Source: Thermohalobaculum sediminis | Lineage (GTDB): Bacteria > Pseudomonadota > Alphaproteobacteria > Rhodobacterales > Rhodobacteraceae | DNA: 64,000 nucleotides | Direction: 5' to 3' | Assembly: GCF_023487995.1 (NCBI RefSeq) | Contig: NZ_JAMFKN010000004.1 | Span: 62,001-126,000 of the forward strand | In this document: positions 1-12,996 of the stretch, piece by piece | Layout: every line of letters starts with the position of its first letter | Position numbering within the stretch: the first letter of the stretch is position 1 | Made by a program: the position numbers and the translations under genes | Notes under the pieces: model-generated | The model's input: the letters and a program-made list of their open reading frames with translations, nothing else | Databases searched by the model: none | What the model was told of the DNA's origin: nothing

Positions 1-2
1 CC

Positions 3-293
3 AGCACCATGGGCCGGGTGGATGCGATGATGAAGACCTGGGCGACCTTCCCGGTGCCGATGCCGGTGTCCTCGCTCGCGCTCAACGAGAAGCTTGCCGC
101 CCTGCCGCCGCTCGAAGCGGTCAAGCTGGGCGAGCATGTGGCCGGGCAGAGCTGGGCTACCGGCATGGCGGCCTATGCGCCGCCGAAGCTTGCGATCGCG
201 CCTTTCCTGAACGCCATGCTCGCGCTCAACGCGACGCTGCACGCGACGGCGGCCTTTCCCCCGCTCGGCCCCTGCGGGGCGTGCAACTCGTGA
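3..293 (+). CDS. C-terminal part of an unrecognised protein (cut by the window edge)
   Basis: The frame is open from the first bases of the window to a TGA at 291-293, so this is the 3' end of a gene that begins upstream. An internal ATG at 9 could be a start, but nothing upstream is visible to test it. About 94 residues can be read. They are rich in Ala, Pro and Leu, with a Met-Met-Lys-Thr-Trp stretch near the start of the visible part and a Cys-Gly-Ala-Cys motif just before the end. I do not recognise the family. Third positions are strongly G/C, as in neighbouring genes, so coding is likely. It converges on the kinase gene, with only 21 bases between the two stops. Confidence 0.55.
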   Translation, partial: STMGRVDAMMKTWATFPVPMPVSSLALNEKLAALPPLEAVKLGEHVAGQSWATGMAAYAPPKLAIAPFLNAMLALNATLHATAAFPPLGPCGACNS

Positions 294-314: not shown

Positions 315-2510
315 TCAGTTCTCGCGCGTCGTGAAGAACTCACGCGAGACGATGTATTCGGTGGTTTCCGCCCGGCTCAGCGAGGCCACGAGGTCCTCGA
401 GGAAAAGCTCGGCCGCATCGTTGCGCGGCAGCATCTGGTCGAGGAAGGCGCGGGGGCTTGCGACCGCGACGAAGATATTCGTCCCATAGGGCGGCCCCAC
501 GAGGAAGCCCCGGCGCCCGACCGCGACATCCTTGGCAGGGAAGAGCACGCGCACCGCGTAGTGGTCGCCGTCCCGCGTCCCCGCCTTGTCCACACGGTTC
601 TCGGGGCGATCCTTGTAGGGCAGGAGATGGATCACCTTGCCGGTGTTGCCATCGACGTAGAAGACGTAGAGATACGCGTCCGCGTAGCTCTGATCGACCC
701 TCACGTCGATCACCGGGTTGTCGCCCGAGACGAAGTATCCGGCGGTCGGCGCCCCCTCCTTCTGGCCGTAGCTGAAGGCGAAGCTGAGTTGCGGGGCGTT
801 GCCGCGCGGCAGCAGGCGCTCGACCTTGCAGACCAGCTCGCTGGTGATCGTCAGGTCCGCCTCGATCGCCCGCGCGCCGTCGAGATCGCCCAGCGCGCCG
901 CGGATCGCATCGGCATCGGCCTGCGATGCGACGGGGCCCGAGACCAGGACCGGCGTGCCAGGCGGCAGCGGGTCGGGGCCCTGGAAGCGCAGCGGGCCGC
1001 ATTTGGTGAAGCCCGCGACCGCCGCGTTCATCGCCGCATGTGCGAGCGGCTGGGGTGCGAGCGCGACCTGCAGGTCGAGCGAGAGCGCCCGGGCATTCGC
1101 GACGGCCGCGCTCTGCTCCTCGACCAGCGAATAGACCACGCGGTCGGGCGCGGTACCGCGCAGGACGACGTTGGTGTCGGCGACGCTGAGCGACCAGTTC
1201 TCCAACAGCTTGGCGGCCGCGGCGAGTTCGGTCACCGCCGCGGTCCAGTCCTGCGTCGGCATCCCGGTGGCTGGCGTGAGCGTGCCGTCGACCGACTTTC
1301 CGTCGAGCGCCTGCGACAGTCCGCTGCGCAGCGCCACGGCCTCCTCCTCGGACGGGGCGTTACCCGCGACCGACGCGGTGCCGTCCTCGACCTTTAGGTC
1401 GAGCTGGTAGGGCGAGGCCACCGGCAGAGGCTCCTCCATCAGGCCGGGCAGGAGGAAATAGCCGCCGGCGCCGAGGCCCGCGACCACGGCTATGCCGGCG
1501 ATGAGGGCGAAGGCGCCTCCCTTCTTCTTGGCGGGCGGCGCGGCCTCGGCGCCTCCCCGCGCCGGGCTTCCGCCCGACGTTGTCTGCGCCGCCGGGGCCG
1601 GGCGCCCGGCCGGGCGGATCACGGTCTTCTCGCCCGCGCCCGCACCGCCGATCAGCGCGTCGAGGTCGTCGACCTGGCCCATGCCGTCGATCAGCAGGCG
1701 CACATCCGCCGCCGTCCTCGGCCGGTCGTCCGGGTTCGGCTGGAGCAGCGCTTGGATCAGCGGGCGCAGCACGCCGGGCAGGTGCTCGGTCTCGGGCGTC
1801 CGGGTCTTGCCGCCGATGATCTGCTCGAGCGTCTTGCCCTCGCCCGCGCTGCGCCCCTCGCAGGCGGCGAGCAGCGTGGCGCCGAGGCTGTAGAAGTCCG
1901 AGCGCGGATCCAGCGGCCGGCCGTCGATCTGTTCCGGCGAGGCATACTGGTAGGTTCCGGCGAACCCCCCACCGATCACCGAATGCTTGGTCTGCGCGAG
2001 GTCCTTGGCGATGCCGAAGTCGATCAGCGTGGCCTTGGCGGGATCGCCGTCGCGCAGGATGACGTTGGCGGGCGTGAGGTCGCGGTGCAGCACCTTGTGG
2101 CCATGCGCGACCTCGAGCCCGTCGATCACGCGCCGGGCGATCTGAAGGATTTCCTCGGGCGGCACGGGGCCGCGCCTCAGGCGCTCGCCCAGGCTCTCGC
2201 CGCGGATGAACTCCATGACGAGGAAGGTGATCCCGCCTTCCATCTCGGTGCGCAGAAGCTCGTAATAGCGCACGACGGCGGGGTGCATGATCTCGTGCAG
2301 CGCGTTGGCCTCGCGCTGCATCAGCTCGACCAGGGTCGGGTCGGCCGCGAATTCGCGCTTGAGCAGCTTGATCGCCACCTCGCGCCCCGTCGCCTTGTTG
2401 CGCGCGAGATAGACCTCGCCCGTGCCGCCCTCGCCGACCAGGTCGACGATCTCGTAGGTGTAGTTGAGGACAACGCCGGGCGCGAGCATGCCCTTCTTCG
2501 GGTTCGTCAT
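315..2510 (-). CDS. Transmembrane serine/threonine protein kinase with BON-like region and DUF4384 domain
   Basis: A 731-residue Hanks-type kinase. Visible in order: glycine loop (GEGGTG, about 27-32), ATP-binding Lys48, catalytic loop HRD at 142-144, DFG at 164-166, SPE at 191-193, an Ala/Pro-rich linker (about 290-330), one membrane segment (about 331-354), then a roughly 360-residue extracytoplasmic part. That part begins with stretches resembling BON repeats (about 365-560) and ends in a DUF4384-type domain (about 590-710). All catalytic motifs are intact, so an active cytoplasmic kinase with a periplasmic sensor or effector half is expected. It is the last gene of the OmpA-TpsB-TpsA-CHAT locus, 96 bases downstream of the CHAT gene. 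DUF4384 is often found with caspase-like proteins, which fits the neighbour. The kinase call is firm; the role and substrates are unknown. Confidence 0.9.
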   Translation of the reverse strand: MTNPKKGMLAPGVVLNYTYEIVDLVGEGGTGEVYLARNKATGREVAIKLLKREFAADPTLVELMQREANALHEIMHPAVVRYYELLRTEMEGGITFLVMEFIRGESLGERLRRGPVPPEEILQIARRVIDGLEVAHGHKVLHRDLTPANVILRDGDPAKATLIDFGIAKDLAQTKHSVIGGGFAGTYQYASPEQIDGRPLDPRSDFYSLGATLLAACEGRSAGEGKTLEQIIGGKTRTPETEHLPGVLRPLIQALLQPNPDDRPRTAADVRLLIDGMGQVDDLDALIGGAGAGEKTVIRPAGRPAPAAQTTSGGSPARGGAEAAPPAKKKGGAFALIAGIAVVAGLGAGGYFLLPGLMEEPLPVASPYQLDLKVEDGTASVAGNAPSEEEAVALRSGLSQALDGKSVDGTLTPATGMPTQDWTAAVTELAAAAKLLENWSLSVADTNVVLRGTAPDRVVYSLVEEQSAAVANARALSLDLQVALAPQPLAHAAMNAAVAGFTKCGPLRFQGPDPLPPGTPVLVSGPVASQADADAIRGALGDLDGARAIEADLTITSELVCKVERLLPRGNAPQLSFAFSYGQKEGAPTAGYFVSGDNPVIDVRVDQSYADAYLYVFYVDGNTGKVIHLLPYKDRPENRVDKAGTRDGDHYAVRVLFPAKDVAVGRRGFLVGPPYGTNIFVAVASPRAFLDQMLPRNDAAELFLEDLVASLSRAETTEYIVSREFFTTREN

Positions 2511-2606
2511 TCCTCGTCTCCCCTCGCGACCTGCCGCGCCGTCACACCTTGCGCCGTCCGGCGCCCCCGGGGCAAGCGGGCCAGACCCGGCCCGCGTGCC
2601 GGCAGA

Positions 2607-5135
2607 TCAGCGGATCGCAAGATCGCGCTGCGCATCGCCGATCATGACGAAGGCCCCCCAGAACACCGGGTCCGAGGTCGCGGGGTTGCGCCGCAGCGCC
2701 TCCTGCGCTTCGCGCAGCGCCGCCGTCATCGACTTGCCGGCACGAAGCCCGGTGTAGAAGTCGCGCACGATCCGCGCGGTCGTGGCGTCGCTGACAGGCC
2801 AGTGCGTCGCGAGGATCGCCCGGCTGCCCGCGTCGAAGAAGGCGCGCGCAAGCCCCGAGAGCGCCTCGCCCCCCGCCGCGTTGAAGTCGCCGCCCGCCGA
2901 GCCCGCCGTGTCGCAGGCCGACAGCACCACGAGGTCGGCGTCGAGCGAAAGGCGCCGGATCTCGACGTCGGTCAGCAGCCCGTCGCTGCCCTCGACCCCC
3001 GCGGCCGACACCGACAGCGCCGGACGGCGGATGCAGTCGCCCATCGGCAGGATGCCGTGGGTGGCAAAATGCAGGACGCCGTACTCGCGCAGCTCTCCGG
3101 CTTCCGAGGCCTCGGCGATGCGCCGCTCGTTGAAGGCCTGGCCCTCGATGATCTCGCTCGACTCGGCGCCGAATATCTGGCCGACGGTCGCGACCTCGGT
3201 CCTCGTGCCCTCGAGCGGGGGAAGCTGCGCGATCGCCTGGGCGATGGGCAGGCATTCCTCGGGCAGGAAGGACTGGGTCAGGATCTCCTGGACGTCCGCT
3301 CCCGGCTGGAAATCACCGAAGGCGACGATCCGGCGCCCATCGGCCTCGCGCGCCGCCGCGGCCCTGCGCAGGTCGATGAGGTTGCGCGGCGCCGGGACGT
3401 AGCTCACCTCGTAGGCGGCGCCCAGCCACGCGACATCGGTGAAGTCCTCGAGCCGAGCCAGATCCGGGATCTCGCTGCGCCGGGTGGCGAGGATCTCCAT
3501 CGGCAGCGCCGTCAGCGCGTCGGAGAGCGAGAAGACGAGCTTCCCAGCCCCCGCGAGTTCGGGTTCGGCGGGGGCGAGGAAGGCCTCGTAGATGCGGTGC
3601 GACTCGTTGGGCGTGTAGATGAACTGGGTCCGCAGGATGTCCCTCAGCTGGGCCACGATGGCGGTGGTCTCGGCGGCCGAGAGCGACGAGACCGTAAACA
3701 TCCGGAAGGCGTCCTTGCGGATCACGAAGACGAGGCTTTCGGGCTCGCCCAGCACGATCTGCACATAGCCCTCGTCGGTGCCCAGCACCTCCTGCAATGC
3801 GGCGATCGAGGCCGAGCCGCTGATGCGTTCGAGATATTCGGGGTCGAGCGAGAGCACGCGCTCGAGCGCCGCCTGCTCGCGTTCGTTCGCGGCCTCGAAG
3901 CGCCGCGTCACCTCGGCCACCAGCCCGGGGCTCGACAGCGAGCCTCGGCCCTCGACCATCAGCTTCTGCGCGACGATGAGGGCGAGCTCCTCCGAGGCCC
4001 GGTTGAGCTCGCGCACGGCCTCGGCCAGCGGGCTCGTGCCCTCGGCGAGGCTTGCGGCGGCCAGCGAGACCGACGACGCGGTTGTCTGGCTGCGCACCAC
4101 CTGCGCCGCGACGAAGAGATCGCCCGTCAGCTCCTCGCGCCGCGCCGGCTTCTCGGCGATCACCTTCTGCACCAGTTCGACATACGGCCAGAGCAGGTCG
4201 TAGGAGATCCGCACGGGCACGCCCTTGAGGATGCCGAAGCCGCGCTTGAAGGCGGCAAGCGCGTCGTCCTCGCGCCCCATCGCGGCCAGGATGCGGCCCT
4301 GCACGACCTCCGCCCGCGCCATCAGCGCCGAGCGGCGCATGTCTGCGCCGTAGGTCCGGATCGCCTCGCGCACGGTGGACAGCGCTGCGTCGGTCTGGCC
4401 GCCCGCAAGCTGGACCTCGGCCTTGGTCACTAGGAACCGCGGCACGTAGCTCGACGCCGCGCCGTCGATCGGGGCCACGCGCGCCAGTGCCGCGTCGACC
4501 GCGACCATGGCGTTGTCGATGCGTCCGCGCGACATGTAGGCGAAGGCAAGCGCGGCGAGGTTGACCGATTCCTCGATGAGCTGGCGCTGCGCCTCGCGCG
4601 ACAGTTGCAGCACCGACGAGCTGAGGTCGCGCTCAAGCAGCGCGAGGCCCTGGCTTTCGCCAGCCGAAACGGACGCAAGCTCGGCCTGCTCCAGCGTGCC
4701 CGCGCCCACAGCCGAGCGGTTCAGGTCATGGAGTGCGCGGTAGATCTTGGTGCGCGAGGCCACCGCTTCGCCGCCTGTCGCGGCGCTCGCGTCCAGCATG
4801 CCCAGCGCCGCGGTGAAATTGCGCTGGTTCGAATAGACGAGGCCGAGATTGGCCAGAACGATCGACCGGGGCGGGATGTCCTCGCAGGCCGCCACCTCGT
4901 CGGCGCGCTGGTCGTAGATCGCCAGGATGTCGGTCCAGGCACGCTCGGCGCGGTCGTATTCGGTGAGGAAGTTGCGGCGGAACGCTTCGTTCGCACGCCC
5001 CTCGATCTCGGCGCAGAGCTCGGGCGAGCCCTGCACCACCGCGCCGTCCTCGTCGACCGCGCAGCCCGCGAGCGCGAGCGCAATGCCGGAGGCGGTGAGC
5101 ATTCCCGCGAGGCGGGGTCGGAACCAGGCGGTCAT
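2607..5135 (-). CDS. TPR-CHAT caspase-like protease, predicted outer-membrane lipoprotein
   Basis: An 842-residue protein. It starts with a signal peptide and lipobox (LAGC, Cys25 followed by Ala), so it should be exported and lipidated; absence of Asp at +2 favours the outer membrane. The middle is alpha-helical with TPR-like repeats (for example a helix pair around residues 90-125). The C-terminal 250 residues are a CHAT domain (caspase HetF associated with TPRs) with the catalytic dyad His693 (in HFATHG) and Cys741 (in SACDT), and the typical ATHWPVSD and FWGAF motifs. CHAT proteins are clan CD cysteine proteases related to separase and caspases. The ATG overlaps the tpsA stop as ATGA, implying translational coupling to the exoprotein. 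A likely substrate is the exoprotein or another surface protein, but that is inference. Most TPR-CHAT proteins I know of are cytoplasmic, so the lipobox is notable. Confidence 0.9.
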   Translation of the reverse strand: MTAWFRPRLAGMLTASGIALALAGCAVDEDGAVVQGSPELCAEIEGRANEAFRRNFLTEYDRAERAWTDILAIYDQRADEVAACEDIPPRSIVLANLGLVYSNQRNFTAALGMLDASAATGGEAVASRTKIYRALHDLNRSAVGAGTLEQAELASVSAGESQGLALLERDLSSSVLQLSREAQRQLIEESVNLAALAFAYMSRGRIDNAMVAVDAALARVAPIDGAASSYVPRFLVTKAEVQLAGGQTDAALSTVREAIRTYGADMRRSALMARAEVVQGRILAAMGREDDALAAFKRGFGILKGVPVRISYDLLWPYVELVQKVIAEKPARREELTGDLFVAAQVVRSQTTASSVSLAAASLAEGTSPLAEAVRELNRASEELALIVAQKLMVEGRGSLSSPGLVAEVTRRFEAANEREQAALERVLSLDPEYLERISGSASIAALQEVLGTDEGYVQIVLGEPESLVFVIRKDAFRMFTVSSLSAAETTAIVAQLRDILRTQFIYTPNESHRIYEAFLAPAEPELAGAGKLVFSLSDALTALPMEILATRRSEIPDLARLEDFTDVAWLGAAYEVSYVPAPRNLIDLRRAAAAREADGRRIVAFGDFQPGADVQEILTQSFLPEECLPIAQAIAQLPPLEGTRTEVATVGQIFGAESSEIIEGQAFNERRIAEASEAGELREYGVLHFATHGILPMGDCIRRPALSVSAAGVEGSDGLLTDVEIRRLSLDADLVVLSACDTAGSAGGDFNAAGGEALSGLARAFFDAGSRAILATHWPVSDATTARIVRDFYTGLRAGKSMTAALREAQEALRRNPATSDPVFWGAFVMIGDAQRDLAIR

Positions 5136-8100
5136 TGCGTCGCTTCCTCTTCGGCGCCACGCGCGCCACGCTGCCAGAGGTTCTCGTTGCCGGTCGCCGA
5201 GTAGAGCGTGGCGAAGTCGATCGGCGGCAGTTCGAACAGCGGCCGCTCGAGCGCGAAATAGGGCAGGACCAGCCGCACCTCGTCCTCGAGCACGCCATTG
5301 CCCATGATGTCGCCGATGAAGGGGCCGATCAGGACGACGATGATCTCGTCATCGGTGCAGTCCTCGAGGGTCGAGATCGTGCAGCCGGTGGTCGTCGGCG
5401 CGAGGAAGGTCACGTCCGGCAGTGCGGGGCGGACGCCCAGGGCGGGCAGCCCCGGCGCGCCGGCGGCGCCCGCAACCGGGTCGACGGTTGCGGTGATTAC
5501 CCCGCCCGGCGGGTCGCCCAGCGCTGCCGAGATGTCCTTGCCGATGACGACGCTTCCGCCTGCTCCCGGCCCCTCGATGTCGGCGAGCCCGGCGATCGCT
5601 CCCGGCAGCACCAGTTCGCCCGCGCCCCGGATTGTGAAATCCCTGAAGCCCGGACCGCTCAACGGCACTATGTCGCCGGATAGCGCGTCGAGCACGAGCG
5701 TTCCCGCGAAGACGTCATTCACGAAGATGTTCCCGCCCGACGACGTTGCGGCGAGCAGGCCGGCGGTCTGCACGCCCGAGAGCGAGACGTCGCCAAAGGC
5801 CGCGACATCGACCGAGCCGGCGACGAGGTTGGTGATGCTGACCTCGCTCGGGGTCATGCCCCCGGGTGTCGTGTTGCCCGCGCGCCCGTCGGACAGGACG
5901 AGGAACGCCCCGGCCGAGAGGCTGTAGTCGCCGATGGCGAAGCGCGCGAGCGACAGCGTTCCGCCCGCGGCGAGGCTGGTCGAGCCCCCGACCTGCAGGT
6001 CGGTGAGCGACAGATCCCCGCTCGCGCTGCCCCCGAGCGGGCCGGCGATGAACAGGCGCTGGCCGCCGACAGTGCCCTGCGTGCCGAGGTCGAGCGCACC
6101 GCGGAACACCGCATCGCTCATCGTGAGGCCAGCGGAATCGGCGAACGTCGCCGCACCGTTGATGTCGATGAAGGCGAGGTCGTAGCTCGTGCCCGCGAAG
6201 CTCGCGCCCGCGGTGGTCGAGAGGTTGTCGATCGAAAGTGCCCCTGTCGAGGAGGCCGTTAGCGCGCCCACCACCAGCACGCGCGAGAGGTCGAGCGACG
6301 AGGTGAGCCCGGTGTCGAAATCGGCGAGGACCGAGACATCGGTCATCGCCAGCGCCGTGCCGTCCACGAGCGAAAGCCCCCCGACGAGGTTGCCGCGCGT
6401 AAGCGTGACCACCGGGGCGGTGAGGCTCGCGATCCCGCCAATTACGAAGTCGGTGAACCCGATGACATTCCCGGCTGCGAGCGTCGCACCGCCGCCCACG
6501 CGCAGCCTCTCGGCGCTGATTGCATCGAGAGCATCTGCCGAGAGCGCGCCGCCGACCGACGTATCGAGGATCCGGAGCTGGACGAGTGGCCCTGCGCTGC
6601 CGTCCGTCAGGGTGTCGAGATCGCCACCGAAGACGGCGCGCTCAAGATAGATGTTCTGCCCGCGCAGGTCGCCAGACCCGCCAACCTGCACGTCGGTCAG
6701 GCCGACATTCTCGGTTCCGTTGACGATGAGATCGCCGCCGACTGCAACACGCGTGAGTTCGACGTTGTCGCCGGGAGGCAGCGCAAGCGCCACGATCGGC
6801 CCCGCGGCGGCGGGGCTAGGAAGTCCGGACATCTGGACACGCAGGTAATCCCCGGTCGCGGTATCGGTTATTGCGATACCTTCCGTTCCGTCGCCGTTGC
6901 GCCGGACGAAGAGATACTCCGAAAGCCTGCTGTTCACGATGTTGATCTCGGTCGACATCTGCAGGTTGGCGTTGTCGCCGAACAATTCGATGCTGCCGAG
7001 GCGGCCCTCGTCATAGGTCTCGATTCGCAGCCTGTCGCCTATCAGCGTCGCGCGGTCGAATGTGCTGTTCGTCTCGAGGAACAGCGTGAGGTCGCCGTCG
7101 TCGCCGATCCCGTCCGAGTTCGCCCGAAGCAGCACGTCCCCGACCGTGCCGATCGCGCGAGGCGCGCCGTAGCCGGTGATGACGTAGAGATCGTTGGCGT
7201 CCTCGAGCGCGAGCGTCTCGACAGCGCCGATTAGCGGGCTGCGCTCGAAGTCGTTGTGATAGACGCCGCTGCTGGTGACGCCACGCGGGAGCAGGATGTT
7301 CCCCGCCTGATCGAGTTGGAGGTTCAATTCGGCATAGCCGATGCGCGCCAGATAGGTGAACGGCTCGCCGGTGTTGACGTCACGATCCGCGAGGGCGCCG
7401 CTCCCGGCGGGAAGCTCCGGCGCGGCGATGGTCACAGTCCCGCCCATGCCAGCATCGAGCGCGCTGTTCGGCAGCTTGTAGATATCGCCGGGCACGTTCA
7501 CGAACATCGAATTGGTGTCGATGAAGCCGAGCGCGAGGTTTGGGACATCGGCAGTGAGCGTCGAGGTCCGCACGCCGTTCAGCGTGAGCGTGCCACCGTC
7601 CCGGATCGACCCCGCGGAGAAGGTGAGCGGATCGGCGCCGATGATATCGACGCTGGTCAGGCTGAGGTTGTCGGTCGCAAACGGAAGGACCTCATAGGAC
7701 GCATAGGAATAGCCGCCCGAGAATGTCAGAGTGTCGGTCGAGCCGTTCGCAAGCGCGACGCTGCCGCCTGCGACTGTGCCGTAGATCGTCAACAGCCGGG
7801 CGTCGAAGCGGTCGAGCGTCACGTCTCCGCCGACCTCGGCAAAGCCCACCTCCGCTCGCGGCCCGCCGATCAGCAGGTCGTCGGCGACAATGTCTGTCGC
7901 GGTCACGCTGCCCTGGCCCGCGAGGAGCGTGGCCGTACCCGGCCCGGACACGGTGACACCGCCTGGCCCGCTCGTGTCGAAGGCACCGACAACGAGGCGC
8001 GAGACCACGAGGTCGCCACCGGTCGATTCCACCTCGAATTCTGTCTGCGCATAGCTGTCGACGACATCGAGTGACGATCCGGCGCGGAACTCGACGGTGC

Positions 8101-10450
8101 CGCCGACGATCTGCAGCGTTCCGCCAAAGCTGTTGGACGAGTCGCCCAGCAGGACGTTGGCGAATGTGTCGTTCAGCGGGTCGGCATCGCCTTGGTCATC
8201 TGTCGCGCGGAAGCTGGCGTTGCCTCCGACGGCCATGGACACGTCGAACGCGTCGGTGATCGCGCCCTGGGCGCTGAAGACGGCATTGCCGAGGATGTCC
8301 ACGTCGCGGTCACCGAAGACCGAGAAATCGACGTCCGCGAACACTATCGGCCCGTCGGTCGTCACATCGACATCGCCGCTGGCAAAGAGCCCTCGGATCG
8401 TGAGGTCTGGCGTGAACGAGCCCTCGTTGGTGTGCCCGAGGACGATGTTCCTGCCGGTCGCCCGGAACTCGGAGAAATTGTTGTTGGCCGACGGCAGGAG
8501 GATGTCATAGCTGCCGGCGTTGACGGCCAGCGTCGCCGAGTAGCTGCCCTCGCTGTAGCCCTCGCGGATCGAGGTGCCGGCCTCCTGCGTGACGTCGCCG
8601 CCATTGGCGGTGATGCTGGCATAGCCGCCGACCTCGGTCTGCGGCAGAACCAGCCCGGCGCCCGAGGTCAGGCTGGACCCGTAGTTGAGGAAAAGCGTCG
8701 TGCCCGGCGCCATCTGGAAGTCCAGCAGACCGCCCGCGCTGGCGCTGGCGAAATAGTCGAGAATGATCGACTGCCCCGCGCCCGAGCGCATCGTCAGATC
8801 GCCGGTCGCACTGACCGCCGCATAGCCCACGATGATGCCGTTGCCATACCCCGCTAGCGGCGGCGTTCCGAAATCGACGCCTGAGTCGAGCGTGATCGAG
8901 CCGTCGATGATCAGGTTGGCGCCGATGAAGATCTCGCGTCCCGCCTCGATCGTCAGTGCTAGCGTGTTGCCCGTGGCGGTGTTATCGACATCGCTGAGGA
9001 TGTTGACTTCGCTGTTCGCCTGCAGCGTCAGCGTGCCGTTCACGCTGGTGATGAAGTCGGGGGTGATCGTCGTCGTCAGCCCGTCGCCGTCGAGGGCCAG
9101 GTCGTCGAACAGGATGTCGAAGCCCGGCGCGCCCTGCGAGATCGTCGCGGTACTCGAGACGTTGATGATCTCGGGATCGAGCAGCAACTCGCCCGCCTCG
9201 CCCTTTGGCGCCGCCAGGTCGACCCCGCCCTCGATCCTGAGATAGCCGCCCGAGACCTCGGCGAAGCCGCCGTCGCCGCCCTCGGCGCCGCCGCGCACGC
9301 TGAGGCTGCCGAAGAAGCCGGTCGCGTTCTGGGACCAGATCACCGCGGTGCCGCCGTCGCCCGAGGTGATGGCGTCGGCGCGGATCGTGGCGCCTTCCTC
9401 GACGACCGTGACGCGCGCCTGGCGCAGGTCGCCCCCGCCCTTCACGTCGCCGCCTATGCGGATGTCGCCACCGCCCGCCGCGCCCGAGGCGTCGATCTCG
9501 GCGGTCCCGGTCACGCGGGTCCGGTCGCCGGTCGCGGTGATCTTTCCGCCGGTCAGGTCCTCGCCGCCCGTGGCGTCGAGCCGGCCGGAGATCTCGACCG
9601 TGTCGCCGCCAGACAGCACGATCCGCCCTTCCGAGCCGGACACGGTCGTGGCCTCGATGACGCCGCCGGCCGAGACGGTGGATTCGAGCACCCCTTCCGC
9701 GGTCGCCGCGTCGATCAGCACGAGCCCGCCGTCATTGCGGATGGTGCCGGTGTTGACAGCCGCGAGCTGCGTCGCCTCGCCGGTCGGCAGGGCGAGAATG
9801 CCGTCGCCCGCAAGATCGATCGCGAAGGCGTCGGTGCCCGCGATCACCACGCGCCCCACGCTGCCGACGATCACGCCCTCGTTGCGCGCCCGCGGGCCCA
9901 CGAGGCCCACCAGCCCCGCCTCGCCGAAGGTGATCTGGCCGCGGTTCACCACCGTCGCGTCCGGATTGCCCGGCGTGTCGAAGCGGTCCCGGCCGGCCAT
10001 GAAGGCGTCGTTGCCGATGTCGGCCGTCGTGGCGATGAAGCCGCCCACGTCGATGCGGGCGCTCTCGCCGATCACGACGCCGTTGGGGTTGACGATCCAG
10101 ACATTGCCGGGCGCGTTGATCGCGCCCTGGATGTCCGAGGCGCCGCCCGCCCGCACGCGGTTGAGGGTCACCGCGCTGGCCGAGGGCTGCTGGAAGTTCA
10201 CCGTCTCGGTGGCGCCCACGTCGAAGCTGCGCCAGTCGATGATGGCGCGCTGGGTGCTCTGGCTGATGTCGGTGACGCTGCCCGCGCGGCTGATGCTCGC
10301 GCTGCCGCCGACCACCACGCCGCCTTCGGGCCCCGCTTGCGCGGGGTGCGCGACGGCCGCGAGCGCAAGCGCACAGGCCGTGCTCGACATGAAGCGCCGG
10401 GCACGCCGGCGGCTGATGCTGGCTTTCGCCGTCATTGTCCGGGTGCTCAT
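5132..10450 (-). CDS. Two-partner-secretion exoprotein TpsA (filamentous-haemagglutinin N-terminal domain)
   Basis: A 1772-residue secreted protein. The start at 10450 is chosen over an in-frame ATG at 10486 because a purine-rich Shine-Dalgarno (GGGGGGAGGGG) lies just upstream and an Arg-rich signal peptide begins there; cleavage is expected after AQA (about residue 39). The TPS/haemagglutination domain follows (about 45-300), including an NPNG variant of the NPNL motif at about 121-124. The rest is a long Gly/Ser/Thr/Asp-rich repetitive stretch typical of a right-handed beta-helix. About 75-85 residues before the end is a Cys pair (1690 and 1698). It lies 23 bases after tpsB, its predicted outer-membrane transporter, and its stop overlaps the CHAT start. 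The TPS class is firm; adhesin versus another function cannot be told. Confidence 0.93.
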   Translation of the reverse strand: MSTRTMTAKASISRRRARRFMSSTACALALAAVAHPAQAGPEGGVVVGGSASISRAGSVTDISQSTQRAIIDWRSFDVGATETVNFQQPSASAVTLNRVRAGGASDIQGAINAPGNVWIVNPNGVVIGESARIDVGGFIATTADIGNDAFMAGRDRFDTPGNPDATVVNRGQITFGEAGLVGLVGPRARNEGVIVGSVGRVVIAGTDAFAIDLAGDGILALPTGEATQLAAVNTGTIRNDGGLVLIDAATAEGVLESTVSAGGVIEATTVSGSEGRIVLSGGDTVEISGRLDATGGEDLTGGKITATGDRTRVTGTAEIDASGAAGGGDIRIGGDVKGGGDLRQARVTVVEEGATIRADAITSGDGGTAVIWSQNATGFFGSLSVRGGAEGGDGGFAEVSGGYLRIEGGVDLAAPKGEAGELLLDPEIINVSSTATISQGAPGFDILFDDLALDGDGLTTTITPDFITSVNGTLTLQANSEVNILSDVDNTATGNTLALTIEAGREIFIGANLIIDGSITLDSGVDFGTPPLAGYGNGIIVGYAAVSATGDLTMRSGAGQSIILDYFASASAGGLLDFQMAPGTTLFLNYGSSLTSGAGLVLPQTEVGGYASITANGGDVTQEAGTSIREGYSEGSYSATLAVNAGSYDILLPSANNNFSEFRATGRNIVLGHTNEGSFTPDLTIRGLFASGDVDVTTDGPIVFADVDFSVFGDRDVDILGNAVFSAQGAITDAFDVSMAVGGNASFRATDDQGDADPLNDTFANVLLGDSSNSFGGTLQIVGGTVEFRAGSSLDVVDSYAQTEFEVESTGGDLVVSRLVVGAFDTSGPGGVTVSGPGTATLLAGQGSVTATDIVADDLLIGGPRAEVGFAEVGGDVTLDRFDARLLTIYGTVAGGSVALANGSTDTLTFSGGYSYASYEVLPFATDNLSLTSVDIIGADPLTFSAGSIRDGGTLTLNGVRTSTLTADVPNLALGFIDTNSMFVNVPGDIYKLPNSALDAGMGGTVTIAAPELPAGSGALADRDVNTGEPFTYLARIGYAELNLQLDQAGNILLPRGVTSSGVYHNDFERSPLIGAVETLALEDANDLYVITGYGAPRAIGTVGDVLLRANSDGIGDDGDLTLFLETNSTFDRATLIGDRLRIETYDEGRLGSIELFGDNANLQMSTEINIVNSRLSEYLFVRRNGDGTEGIAITDTATGDYLRVQMSGLPSPAAAGPIVALALPPGDNVELTRVAVGGDLIVNGTENVGLTDVQVGGSGDLRGQNIYLERAVFGGDLDTLTDGSAGPLVQLRILDTSVGGALSADALDAISAERLRVGGGATLAAGNVIGFTDFVIGGIASLTAPVVTLTRGNLVGGLSLVDGTALAMTDVSVLADFDTGLTSSLDLSRVLVVGALTASSTGALSIDNLSTTAGASFAGTSYDLAFIDINGAATFADSAGLTMSDAVFRGALDLGTQGTVGGQRLFIAGPLGGSASGDLSLTDLQVGGSTSLAAGGTLSLARFAIGDYSLSAGAFLVLSDGRAGNTTPGGMTPSEVSITNLVAGSVDVAAFGDVSLSGVQTAGLLAATSSGGNIFVNDVFAGTLVLDALSGDIVPLSGPGFRDFTIRGAGELVLPGAIAGLADIEGPGAGGSVVIGKDISAALGDPPGGVITATVDPVAGAAGAPGLPALGVRPALPDVTFLAPTTTGCTISTLEDCTDDEIIVVLIGPFIGDIMGNGVLEDEVRLVLPYFALERPLFELPPIDFATLYSATGNENLWQRGARGAEEEATQ

Positions 10451-10473
10451 CGCGCCCCTCCCCCCGCCACGCA

Positions 10474-12216
10474 TCACAGGAACCACACGAGCGAGCCGAA
10501 CACCCGCAGGTCACGCTCGCCGGTCCGCAGCAGCGGCTCGGCCAGCGGCACCGCCATCTCGATCTCGAAGCGCGGACCGGCCGGAAGCTGGAACCGTACC
10601 CCGCCGCCCGACGAGGCTAGATCGGTCGAGTTGTCGCCGGGCAAATCGGTCTGGAACACGATGCCGTAGTCGGCGAAGCCATAGAACTCGTAGCCGAAAT
10701 CGACGCCGCGGAAGGTCACCTGGTCGGTGTAGCGCAGCTCGCCATAGGCGGCGAAGCCGCTGTCGCCCAGCGCTTCGGACGGGTCATAGGCCTTGAGATA
10801 CCGCGCGCCGCCCAGCGCGAACCCCTCGTTCGCGAGCACGGTGTCGGGCGACCATTGTCCCGCGATCCGCACATGCCCGCTGACCTCGCGCCAGATCGGC
10901 TGCTCGCGCGCGATCTCGCCGCGCAGGAGGAAGAAGTCGCCCGTGCCGTCGAACCGGCTGAGGTTGGTGTCGCCCTCCTCGCTCGCGCCGAGGATGTCGA
11001 GGCCCTTGCGCAGCGTGATGTCGGCCGAGGTCGCCCCCCAGGCGTCCGCCATGCCCGCGCGCGCGCCAAGGTGGATCACGCGCAGCGAGTCGTCCGTCAG
11101 CGTGGCGACGTTGCCCGAGAAATCGACCGTCGAGTCGATCCAGTCGAAGCCGCCGTTTACCCAGAGCGAGAGGTCGCGGCTGCGGAGCACCGGGTGCTCG
11201 GCGCCGAGGCGGAACTCGTACTGGTCACCGCTGAGGTCAAGCGGCTCGAGGAAGTCGCCTGGCTTGGTGTGGCTGTAGAGCGCGCTCGCCCAGAGCTCGG
11301 TGCCCCAGTCGAGGAAGCCGCGCTGGGTAAGCTGGACCGTGTTGCGCTCGTCGAAATCCGGGAAGCCGTCGAAGCTCCACGAGTTGAAATAAGCCAGCTC
11401 GGTCGAAGCCGCGAAGGAGGTGTAGCTGTTGAGATAGCCGATCCCGCCAATCACGCCGGGCCCGATCACGGGGCTGTCGTGGTGGGTGACGAGGCCGACG
11501 GCGTTCCACACGTCGCGCTCGACATTGAGCGAGAGCACGATGGTGTCGGGCGTCGAGCCCGGCCCCGGCACGAAGGTTGCCCGCGTGATGCCGGGCAGAT
11601 CGGTCGCCAGCAGCGAGGCGCGCTCGAGGTCCTGGATGCGCGGGTTCGACAGGCCCTCGAGCGGCGCGGCCAGCTTGGCGATCAGCTCGCTCACCGGCCC
11701 CACGGCATCGGCCGGCTCTTCGATCACCACCTTCTCGACCGAGACGCCGAGGAGCACGATCTGCACCCGCGCTGCGGCCTGGTCCAGTTCCTGGCGCGGG
11801 ACCAGCACGCGCGTGAACACGAAGCCATCGGCCTTGAGGCCGACCTCGATCTCGCGCGCGGTCGCGTAGACCTGGGCGAGCGTCATGCGCTGCCCCGCCT
11901 GCGCGGCGAGGCGGGCGCGGATCGGGTCGAGCGGCAGGCGCCTGTCGTCGGCAACCGGCGCGCCGTCCCGGCCCACCAGCGCGATCTCGACGATGTCGAG
12001 CGTGATCCCGTCGGCGCCCTGGGGCGCCACGATCGAGGCGCGCGGCACCTCGACGCGCGCGGGGCCGGGGCGCGGGCCCGCTTCCTCGATCTGGCTCTCA
12101 ATGTCGCGCAGCCCCTGGGTGGGCGTCTGCGCCGCGGCCAGTCCGGCGGCAAGCAGCATCGGAAGCGTCACGGCCGCCCGCACGGGCAGCATCAAGGCAT
12201 TCTTTGCGGTCGGCAC
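10474..12216 (-). CDS. TpsB outer-membrane transporter (ShlB/FhaC/HecB family)
   Basis: A 580-residue Omp85-superfamily transporter that should secrete the adjacent TpsA across the outer membrane. It starts at a GTG with GGGGGAAA upstream; the N-terminus is a signal peptide ending near AAAQT. An N-terminal POTRA region (about 60-220, including a ShlB-type POTRA) is followed by a C-terminal beta-barrel with alternating aromatic and polar strands. It ends in an aromatic residue (LVWFL), the usual outer-membrane beta-barrel signal. Length matches the family (about 550-600). It lies upstream of tpsA in the same orientation, which is the usual B-A order. Confidence is high. Confidence 0.93.
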   Translation of the reverse strand: MPTAKNALMLPVRAAVTLPMLLAAGLAAAQTPTQGLRDIESQIEEAGPRPGPARVEVPRASIVAPQGADGITLDIVEIALVGRDGAPVADDRRLPLDPIRARLAAQAGQRMTLAQVYATAREIEVGLKADGFVFTRVLVPRQELDQAAARVQIVLLGVSVEKVVIEEPADAVGPVSELIAKLAAPLEGLSNPRIQDLERASLLATDLPGITRATFVPGPGSTPDTIVLSLNVERDVWNAVGLVTHHDSPVIGPGVIGGIGYLNSYTSFAASTELAYFNSWSFDGFPDFDERNTVQLTQRGFLDWGTELWASALYSHTKPGDFLEPLDLSGDQYEFRLGAEHPVLRSRDLSLWVNGGFDWIDSTVDFSGNVATLTDDSLRVIHLGARAGMADAWGATSADITLRKGLDILGASEEGDTNLSRFDGTGDFFLLRGEIAREQPIWREVSGHVRIAGQWSPDTVLANEGFALGGARYLKAYDPSEALGDSGFAAYGELRYTDQVTFRGVDFGYEFYGFADYGIVFQTDLPGDNSTDLASSGGGVRFQLPAGPRFEIEMAVPLAEPLLRTGERDLRVFGSLVWFL

Positions 12217-12285
12217 GCGCTTTCCCCCGTCAGCGGTGCCCCGCGCGGCGCCCTCGGCCGTGCGGGACTGGATCGTCTGTCTCCG

Positions 12286-12996
12286 TCAGCTCCCGCCTTC
12301 GCCCTCGAGCTTGACCTGGATCTCCACCCGGCGCTGCGCCGCGGCGCGCGGATCGGCGCTCGCCAGCAGCCGCTCCTTGCCCATGCCCACGGCCTCGATC
12401 TGGGCGGTGGCGATGTCGCAGTTGCGGACGAGGAACTCCTTGGTCGCCTCGGCGCGGCGCTGCGACAGGCGCTGGTTGTACTCGGCCGAGCCCGCCGCAT
12501 CGGTGTGGCCGATCACGAAATAGCTGGATCCCGGGTTCAGCTGCAGGTCGGCCCTAAGTGTCGAGCACAGGCCGCTGAGGATCTCGCGTGCCTCGTCGTC
12601 GAGATAGGACGAGTCATAGGCGAACTTGATCGGGCGGAAGAGCTGGTCCTCCTGCGCGAGCTCGAGCGGCACGGGCTCGGTCGCGGCTTCCTTGCGCGAC
12701 TGGCCGGCCGAGGCGGTCGCGGTTTTCTGGCCCGAGGCCGACGGCGTGGCAGAGAGCACCGTCGAGTCGCCCTTGGCGGTCGGTGCCGCCTCGGTCGTGC
12801 CGGTCTGCGGGTTGATCTCGAGCAGCGTGCGGGTCTTTTCCTGCTCGCGCCGCTTCTGCATCAGAAGCTCGCGCTGCTTCTGCAGGATCTGCTGATCCGA
12901 GGGCAGGCTCTGAGCGAAGGCGGGAACGGCCAGAGGCAGCGACAAGGCGACGAGGATCGCGGCCAAGGCAGGCCCTGTGACATGGATGTTCCGCAT
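12286..12996 (-). CDS. OmpA-family peptidoglycan-binding protein
   Basis: A 236-residue protein with a signal peptide (cleavage near PAFAQS, about residue 29). A charged, Gln/Arg/Lys-rich helical stretch follows (about 30-65, probably coiled coil), then a low-complexity linker. The C-terminal OmpA domain (about 120-232) shows the peptidoglycan-binding pattern GHTDAAGSAEYNQRLSQRRA and a terminal arginine-rich RRVEIQVK. There is no N-terminal beta-barrel, so it is probably periplasmic and tethered to peptidoglycan. The start is supported by AAGGAG six bases upstream. It is the first gene of the locus, 69 bases ahead of tpsB, and may anchor the secretion apparatus to the cell wall (inference). 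Confidence 0.88.
   Translation of the reverse strand: MRNIHVTGPALAAILVALSLPLAVPAFAQSLPSDQQILQKQRELLMQKRREQEKTRTLLEINPQTGTTEAAPTAKGDSTVLSATPSASGQKTATASAGQSRKEAATEPVPLELAQEDQLFRPIKFAYDSSYLDDEAREILSGLCSTLRADLQLNPGSSYFVIGHTDAAGSAEYNQRLSQRRAEATKEFLVRNCDIATAQIEAVGMGKERLLASADPRAAAQRRVEIQVKLEGEGGS

Follow-up and report, generated by a model that had tools for sequence, protein, structure and literature searches.

A two-partner secretion operon with a predicted exported CHAT protease bordering a type VI secretion cluster in Thermohalobaculum sediminis

Introduction

What holds together an OmpA-family protein, a TpsB transporter, a TpsA exoprotein, a CHAT protease and a Ser/Thr protein kinase that are encoded in one run at the left edge of a 64,000-nt stretch of Thermohalobaculum sediminis DNA (contig NZ_JAMFKN010000004.1, positions 62,001 to 126,000; hereafter the window)? 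A sequence-only reading of this locus had proposed a single trans-envelope machine. We found that the five-gene set is a composite of a two-partner secretion (TPS)-CHAT unit and a kinase associated with the type VI secretion system (T6SS), with which the OmpA protein probably belongs as well. The earlier reading had identified the genes correctly and had missed the adjoining T6SS and the class-specific tails of the TpsA proteins. With a probability of roughly 0.55, we read the locus as a type Vb operon with its own exported CHAT protease, bordering a T6SS cluster and flanked by OmpA and a PpkA-like kinase, in which CHAT docks on or processes the periplasmic tail of TpsA.

Precedents for the processing of TPS exoproteins are described in two articles (PMC5422565, PMC4694147): LapG, a cysteine protease of the periplasm, cuts the C-terminal tail of Pseudomonas aeruginosa CdrA, and a C-terminal disulfide loop locks the tail of HMW1 and HxuA in the transporter. 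According to one of them, a review (PMC5422565), maturation protease genes appear to lie outside TPS operons. Among the titles and opening lines of abstracts in the open-access literature, nothing paired TPS with CHAT or caspase proteins, or TPS-protease operons with T6SS.

Results

The TPS-CHAT unit

The core of the locus consists of three minus-strand genes, which encode the TpsB outer-membrane transporter (580 aa, 10474..12216), the TpsA exoprotein (1784 aa, 5132..10486) and a TPR-like/CHAT protease that is a predicted lipoprotein (842 aa, 2607..5135). Among 337 genomes of the class, CHAT relatives were found in 63 and TpsB in 100, and both occurred together in 31 genomes against 18.7 expected. 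When distances were measured with 83 of the 100 TpsB genomes entered, including all 31 that have both genes, TpsB lay within 12 kb of CHAT in 21/63 CHAT genomes and, counting just the 23 best-ranked, in 17. A CHAT tree of 70 rows contains a clade of 27 (support 96/96), of which 26 are labelled TPS-linked, the labels of G039, G357 and G424 (our genome handles) resting on the gene upstream of CHAT and not on a neighbouring TpsB. The 27th row, G150, has its CHAT at a contig end. Outside the clade, TpsB lies 1.4 kb from CHAT on the opposite strand in G043. Sphingobium TomTYG73 provides a named example of a TPS-CHAT locus. Judged by gene neighbourhood and tree, TpsB-TpsA-CHAT is a real conserved unit.

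TpsB has a POTRA domain (PF08479; POTRA_2, 25.9 bits against a gathering score of 24) and a ShlB/FhaC-type barrel (PF03865; ShlB, 49 bits against 22.7), and its gene adjoins tpsA, as in type Vb systems; TpsA is a predicted substrate of TpsB. At the L6-loop site (residues 469-477, KAY; 10786-10812, minus strand), the window protein reads LKAY, an Arg-to-Lys change in the VRGY/F-like Arg motif; 14/14 other rows of alignment A1 read RGY or RGF, and an alignment made up mostly of TpsBs linked to C14 caspases has SAFD as its consensus there. We do not regard the motif as defining enough to exclude TPS, since both Pfam families, that of the transporter and that of the exoprotein, are matched.

The sequence-only reading's description of the layout was borne out: the tpsA and CHAT open reading frames (ORFs) overlap by 4 nt, and short gaps separate OmpA from TpsB (69 nt) and CHAT from the kinase (96 nt). 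A GTG start of TpsA would overlap TpsB by 13 nt, and the ATG at 10450 is the likelier start. A scan for promoters and terminators gave signals at or below shuffled expectation and was uninformative.

That reading had also cited TPS-CHAT adjacency from cyanobacteria; none was present on the single Nostoc plasmid record examined. Within the stretches read, nothing relevant stood beside TPS on an Azospirillum record or beside CHAT on an A. vitis plasmid; a Niveispirillum record carries no annotation. A contig search with protein P0004 returned mostly distant Cytophagales CHATs. One contig of Cyclobacterium plantarum carries two tandem CHAT arrays, of four and three genes (stretches L039, L041). 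Downstream of CHAT, G040 and G559 have an unclassified gene, then genes for a CHASE2-cyclase and for an MscS-type channel that binds cyclic nucleotides (L046 4627-8782; L137 571-4888); these neighbours form another class of signalling partners for TPS-CHAT.

The tail of TpsA

TpsA opens with a TPS secretion domain (PF05860, 126 bits against 33.5; residues 49-300, 9587..10342, minus strand) with NPNG at residues 133-136. Near its other end are a cysteine loop, Cys1702-Cys1710 (5357..5383), and a motif, GNENLW (residues 1766-1771, 5174..5191), that starts 19 residues from the end, both likewise on the minus strand. We defined a strict tail pattern, G[NKD][ED]x[LFIMQ][WF] within the last 70 residues, and a relaxed one, G[NKD][EDP] within the last 40, and scored the cysteine loop within the last 150. 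The strict motif occurred in 17/5141 stop-anchored ORFs (overlapping stretches counted twice, some control loci included), of which 15 were TpsA proteins beside CHAT, from 13 distinct loci, and two were unrelated. It was present in 13/22 genes directly upstream of CHAT vs 0/17 complete control TpsA (Fisher p 8e-5), where one control (G017) is C14-linked; with G559 and G004 included, the comparison became 13/24 vs 0/17 (p 1.5e-4). The relaxed motif, for which chance matches are possible, as in G559, was found in 16/22 CHAT-linked and 0/17 control proteins, and the loop in 16/22 and 2/17, respectively.

The 22 genes are those of the 26 linked loci that have a readable gene end directly upstream of CHAT (G442 and G425 lack a readable TpsA end). 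They are not all independent, since they include the same-genus sets G045/G440, G418/G521/G606 and G561/G465/G339. Eight ORFs are cut at their 5′ side by contig or stretch ends (G482, G424, G357, G620, G039, G534, G471, G566), and in these the TPS domain was not seen, although the G482 stretch does contain one; neither the G440 ORF nor the G332 ORF has a TPS domain. Two overlapping ORFs make up the TpsA of G440, perhaps because of a frameshift (L140 4661-7973). Outside these counts, the Sphingobium TomTYG73 TpsA ends in GAGNEDLW after a Cys pair.

TpsA proteins linked to C14 caspases share a different tail of ~110 residues (six plasmids and G017). A profile of this tail also found G122, G221 and G152, all beside caspases, G122 not being independent of the Qingshengfaniella alkalisoli plasmid record; run against every ORF of the CHAT and control loci, it matched G017 alone. 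At the level of sequence, then, the C-terminal tails of protease-linked TpsA proteins are specific to the protease class, and the CHAT and C14 types differ. We rejected the idea that the CHAT-type motif is a by-product of gene overlap, as it persists with a 4-nt overlap (window) and with a 209-nt gap (G424). We likewise rejected a CDI-type contact-dependent toxin in the C-terminal part of TpsA, as Pfam gave no toxin-domain match there.

The CHAT protease

The protease carries a CHAT domain (PF12770, 189 bits against 24) with a His/Cys dyad, which places it by sequence among the CHAT peptidases of clan CD. The intact dyad noted earlier was confirmed by alignment: His693 (codon 3057..3059, minus strand) is H in 72/72 aligned CHATs, and Cys741 (codon 2913..2915, minus strand) is C in 71/72, the remaining one being truncated. 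The dyad is kept in 26/26 TPS-linked CHATs. In line with the proposed caspase-like lipoprotein, a predicted lipobox, LAGC, was read from the sequence at residues 22-25 and ending at Cys25 (5061..5072, minus strand). A lipobox regular expression matched 19/26 TPS-linked CHATs, and by eye the other seven have a Sec-type signal (six) or a lipobox (one), so that all 26 look exported from their predicted N-termini. The TPR match in the window protein fell below the Pfam cut-off. In a Foldseek search with the predicted structure, the best match was the TPR-CHAT protein Csx29 of Craspase (7y9x, E 5e-9), and separases also appeared. Among the matches is also a TPR domain whose ligand is a tryptophan-acidic peptide, which is suggestive at most. 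A PDB sequence search with CHAT found no relative, just two matches at E 0.2.

The T6SS cluster, the kinase and OmpA

Left of the window, on the plus strand, a T6SS cluster runs from TssB to TagF (~34.3k-60.5k of the window's contig, C38). It includes TssB, TssC, Hcp, TssF, a ClpV-type ATPase, VgrG, PAAR, a T6SS FHA protein and TssK, and continues with TssL, TssM, TagF and an unclassified 342-aa gene, whose 3′ end lies at 1..293 of the window (plus strand), between TagF and the kinase; the cluster thereby converges on the window kinase. The same flank encodes a 632-aa T6SS protein with VipA-like and VipB-like stretches, besides the separate TssB and TssC (L062 1016-2914).

The kinase (731 aa, 315..2510, minus strand; Pkinase 144 bits against 31.7) has its kinase domain at residues 19-265, with VAIK, HRD and DFG motifs, and its best hydrophobic window at about residue 336. 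It is the sole Pkinase above cut-off in the genome. It has the PpkA-type layout of a kinase domain, a predicted membrane segment and a C-terminal, predicted extracytoplasmic part, and it is encoded with T6SS genes that include an FHA partner, as PpkA-type kinases are. The vWA domain of the P. aeruginosa PpkA prototype had no match in the protein, which we call PpkA-like and not PpkA. Its C-terminal matches to BON and DUF4384 were below the Pfam cut-off (DUF4384, 24.2 vs 27); the DUF4384 assignment of the sequence-only reading fell short here, as did its TPR assignment above, while its OmpA, TpsB, TpsA, CHAT and kinase assignments all stood.

The C-terminal half of the kinase had matches in 76/295 genomes of the family, of which 43, the window genome included, were strong (E < 1e-20, a cut-off set, like that for TpsB below, after seeing the lists). 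TssM was present in all 43, vs 69/295 family genomes overall. Kinase and TssM shared a contig in 35/43 (34 within 38 kb and one 619 kb away; median 2.7 kb) and were on different contigs in 8/43. Any CHAT match was found in only 6/43 of these genomes, those of the window, G009, G030, G203, G300 and G134; the CHATs of G009, G030, G203 and G300 fall outside the TPS clade, and that of G134 was not placed. The kinase thus most likely belongs to the T6SS, by its genomic company.

OmpA (236 aa, 12286..12996, minus strand; Pfam OmpA 63 bits against 27) has, by eye, a signal peptide and no lipobox. OmpA stood directly beside the kinase in 9/14 short relative loci, none of which held a TpsB or CHAT match, and the wider stretches of G121, G190 and G283, which have no CHAT match, show an OmpA-kinase pair with T6SS genes. 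Because strong kinase relatives track TssM and OmpA adjoins the kinase without CHAT, the two are probably a T6SS pair, between which TpsB-TpsA-CHAT was probably inserted here.

Linkage of TPS-protease operons to T6SS

TssM was sought in 30 CHAT genomes chosen from the best-ranked, 24 of them TPS-labelled, with G424 and G620 left out, and was found in six: 5/24 TPS-labelled genomes and G150. In 5/5 TPS-CHAT genomes with TssM (window, G004, G008, G482, G561), the module lies in or beside a T6SS cluster. It stands at the cluster end in the window genome and inside the cluster, on the same strand, in G482, where the order is TssK-TssL-TssM-TagF-kinase-TpsB-TpsA-CHAT-OmpA-OmpA-(unidentified)-TssB-TssC-TssC-TagJ-TssE-TssF. 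In G561, CHAT-TpsA-TpsB-kinase adjoins TssF; in G008, VgrG and TssB flank the order OmpA-TpsB-TpsA-CHAT; and in G004, a kinase and two OmpA genes diverge from TpsB-CHAT-TagF, with TssM on another contig. The fragmented G150 has a T6SS contig with OmpA-kinase after TagF and its CHAT at the end of another contig. The five linked rows are scattered in the CHAT tree and require four changes, and we therefore rejected a single origin of the linkage.

A similar siting was found where C14 takes the place of CHAT. Of the Rhodobacterales plasmid records read among the 40 matches listed, 7/7 have their TpsB relative in or next to a T6SS cluster (43 further records lay beyond these, and the weak Rhodobacterales match H75 was left out). 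A caspase (C14) gene follows tpsA in 6/7, the seventh record ending after TpsB; PF00656 was confirmed for four of these caspases, and PP2C is annotated in 5/7 loci, none having been seen in the scanned part of the window-genome T6SS ORFs. In the stretches read around three Hyphomicrobiales TpsB relatives, no T6SS or caspase gene was present; the Methylobacterium tpsA runs off its stretch. In 218 family genomes, 10 had strong TpsB relatives (E <= 1e-150), with TssM in 9/10 and TpsB within 35 kb of TssM or a T6SS-type kinase in 6/10; among genomes with weaker TpsB relatives, TssM was present in 2/17 and linked in 0/17. This repeated siting of TPS-protease operons beside T6SS in relatives suggests that the two systems work together.

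In the Ruegeria conchae plasmid T6SS region, the TPS genes are followed by three caspase-family genes and a second OmpA (L233 12519-19188). Between VgrG and OmpA-TpsB, the T6SS clusters of Paracoccus and Sulfitobacter repeatedly carry genes for an M15 peptidase and PP2C and a second IcmF-like gene (L234 1970-6087; L240 4988-9073).

Discussion

The closest functional parallel that we see is CdrAB/LapG, which also joins a TPS exoprotein to a periplasm-facing cysteine protease, with the C-terminal tail as the proposed target here. LapG is transglutaminase-like, whereas the present protease is a CHAT protein of clan CD, so that the resemblance is one of working only; and in contrast to what the review says of TPS operons, the protease gene here overlaps tpsA. 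The cysteine pair near the TpsA C-terminus resembles that described for HMW1/HxuA; GNExLW after the loop and an adjoining protease gene set the present system apart. With the T6SS threonine-phosphorylation module (PpkA, PP2C, FHA) the locus shares a kinase beside TssM/TagF and an FHA protein in the cluster, and it differs in the sub-threshold BON/DUF4384 C-terminus of the kinase, the OmpA partner and the inserted TPS-protease operon. The modelled CHAT fold and its His/Cys dyad are like those of Csx29 and separase, but unlike these the protein is a predicted exported lipoprotein; no gRAMP/Cas7-11 or RNA-guided partner was seen among the CHAT neighbours, where no search aimed at one was made. 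The Rhodobacterales TpsB-TpsA-C14 operons (Paracoccus zhejiangensis, Ruegeria conchae) have a similar layout with OmpA, T6SS genes and sometimes a kinase, but their protease is a C14 caspase with Sel1 repeats and their TpsA tail is different.

The gene unit, the association of tail with protease, the export signals, the intact dyad and the repeated T6SS linkage are established by sequence comparison, and from them we infer that TpsA is cut, that its tail stays in the periplasm and is bound by the TPR-like part, and that a signal reaches the T6SS. TpsB would export TpsA with its N-terminus leading, and the C-terminal cysteine loop would plug the transporter, leaving the last ~80 residues, with GNExLW, in the periplasm. 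Because the disulfide loop of HMW1/HxuA locks the tail in the transporter, GNExLW may be expected to be periplasmic and within reach of the CHAT lipoprotein. CHAT would bind this tail, perhaps via its TPR-like helices, and either cut TpsA and release it or report its state. In the T6SS-linked versions, TpsA might act as an adhesin or contact probe, whose state could reach the periplasmic part of the kinase, perhaps with OmpA, and tune T6SS activity through the FHA protein; this control role is read from gene order. A broader form of the proposal, that protease-coupled TPS is general, each clan-CD protease (CHAT or C14) reading the tail of its own TpsA, and that the T6SS-linked versions are contact sensors adjusting firing via OmpA and the kinase, is put forward tentatively, and we consider it less likely than not.

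Several observations weigh against our reading. TssM is missing from 19/24 TPS-labelled CHAT genomes (24/30 of all tested), so a T6SS is not required for the TPS-CHAT module, and G129, which bears the nearest CHAT, is among the genomes without it. The TssM match of G482 is below the family cut-off, yet other T6SS genes surround it, and in G017 TPS-C14 and TssM are ~1.7 Mb apart. The strict motif is missing in 9/22 CHAT-linked genes, and G409 and G332 show no recognisable version of it; the G559 TpsA, one gene from CHAT, ends in GNTALWQ, a near miss, and in G004 no TpsA stands beside CHAT, while the TpsA on another contig ends in ANDEDWPR and lacks the strict motif. Moreover, the motif was formulated on CHAT-linked loci before the controls were read, no cut site could be located in TpsA, and the predicted CHAT structure is weak (predicted local distance difference test, pLDDT, 60).

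CHAT may instead leave TpsA uncut and serve as an exported sensor or effector, its TPR-like part reading the tail and its protease acting on another envelope protein (OmpA, the periplasmic part of the kinase or others). The TPR-CHAT protein of Craspase, the best fold match, cuts a third protein upon its partner's signal, and T6SS-linked loci repeatedly have OmpA and the kinase close by. Given the many TPS-labelled genomes without TssM, however, there is no evident third target that is constant and tied to the T6SS, and the constant partner of CHAT is TpsA/TpsB; we regard this alternative as unlikely. Somewhat less probable still is hitchhiking, in which TPS-CHAT remains a unit and its adjacency to T6SS is functionless, both being accessory islands that share sites. 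The same T6SS-free genomes, and the plasmid location of several loci, speak for it. It fits poorly with G482, where the module is embedded in the T6SS cluster in the same orientation, with its position between OmpA and the kinase in the window, with linkage that recurs on scattered CHAT branches (four changes in five rows) and with C14 replacing CHAT, and with the contrast in TssM between strong- and weaker-TpsB genomes (9/10 vs 2/17).

The machine of the sequence-only reading, in which kinase and OmpA would have evolved for TPS/CHAT, draws on the common strand, the short gaps and the recurrence of OmpA and kinase near TPS-protease operons. Its core, an exported clan-CD protease with TpsB and TpsA, survived, as did the expected co-occurrence of CHAT with TpsB and of OmpA and/or kinase near such units; the complete, self-contained five-gene set did not, as the kinase tracks T6SS and not TPS/CHAT. 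TssM accompanies 43/43 strong kinase relatives, CHAT just 6/43 (four of these outside the TPS clade), and CHAT-free G121, G190 and G283 keep OmpA-kinase pairs beside T6SS genes. On these counts we rejected an independent five-gene machine and consider a dedicated one very improbable. Anti-phage defence was also considered and rejected: PADLOC assigned many kinase models (PD-T4-6, mad6 and others) to the kinase, weak MotB models to OmpA and two weak matches to CHAT, with no search made for a defence partner set.

To our knowledge, exported caspase-like proteins of bacteria are mostly without known substrates. Our preferred reading, a TPS operon whose CHAT protease docks on or processes the tail of TpsA, names a candidate substrate and a recognition element for one such protein. 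These TPS operons fall into classes that each bring along a caspase-superfamily protease and a tail to match, which makes a cut or docking site directly testable, and their recurrence in or beside T6SS clusters, with a kinase and OmpA, suggests that a contact-dependent weapon receives input from the outer surface.

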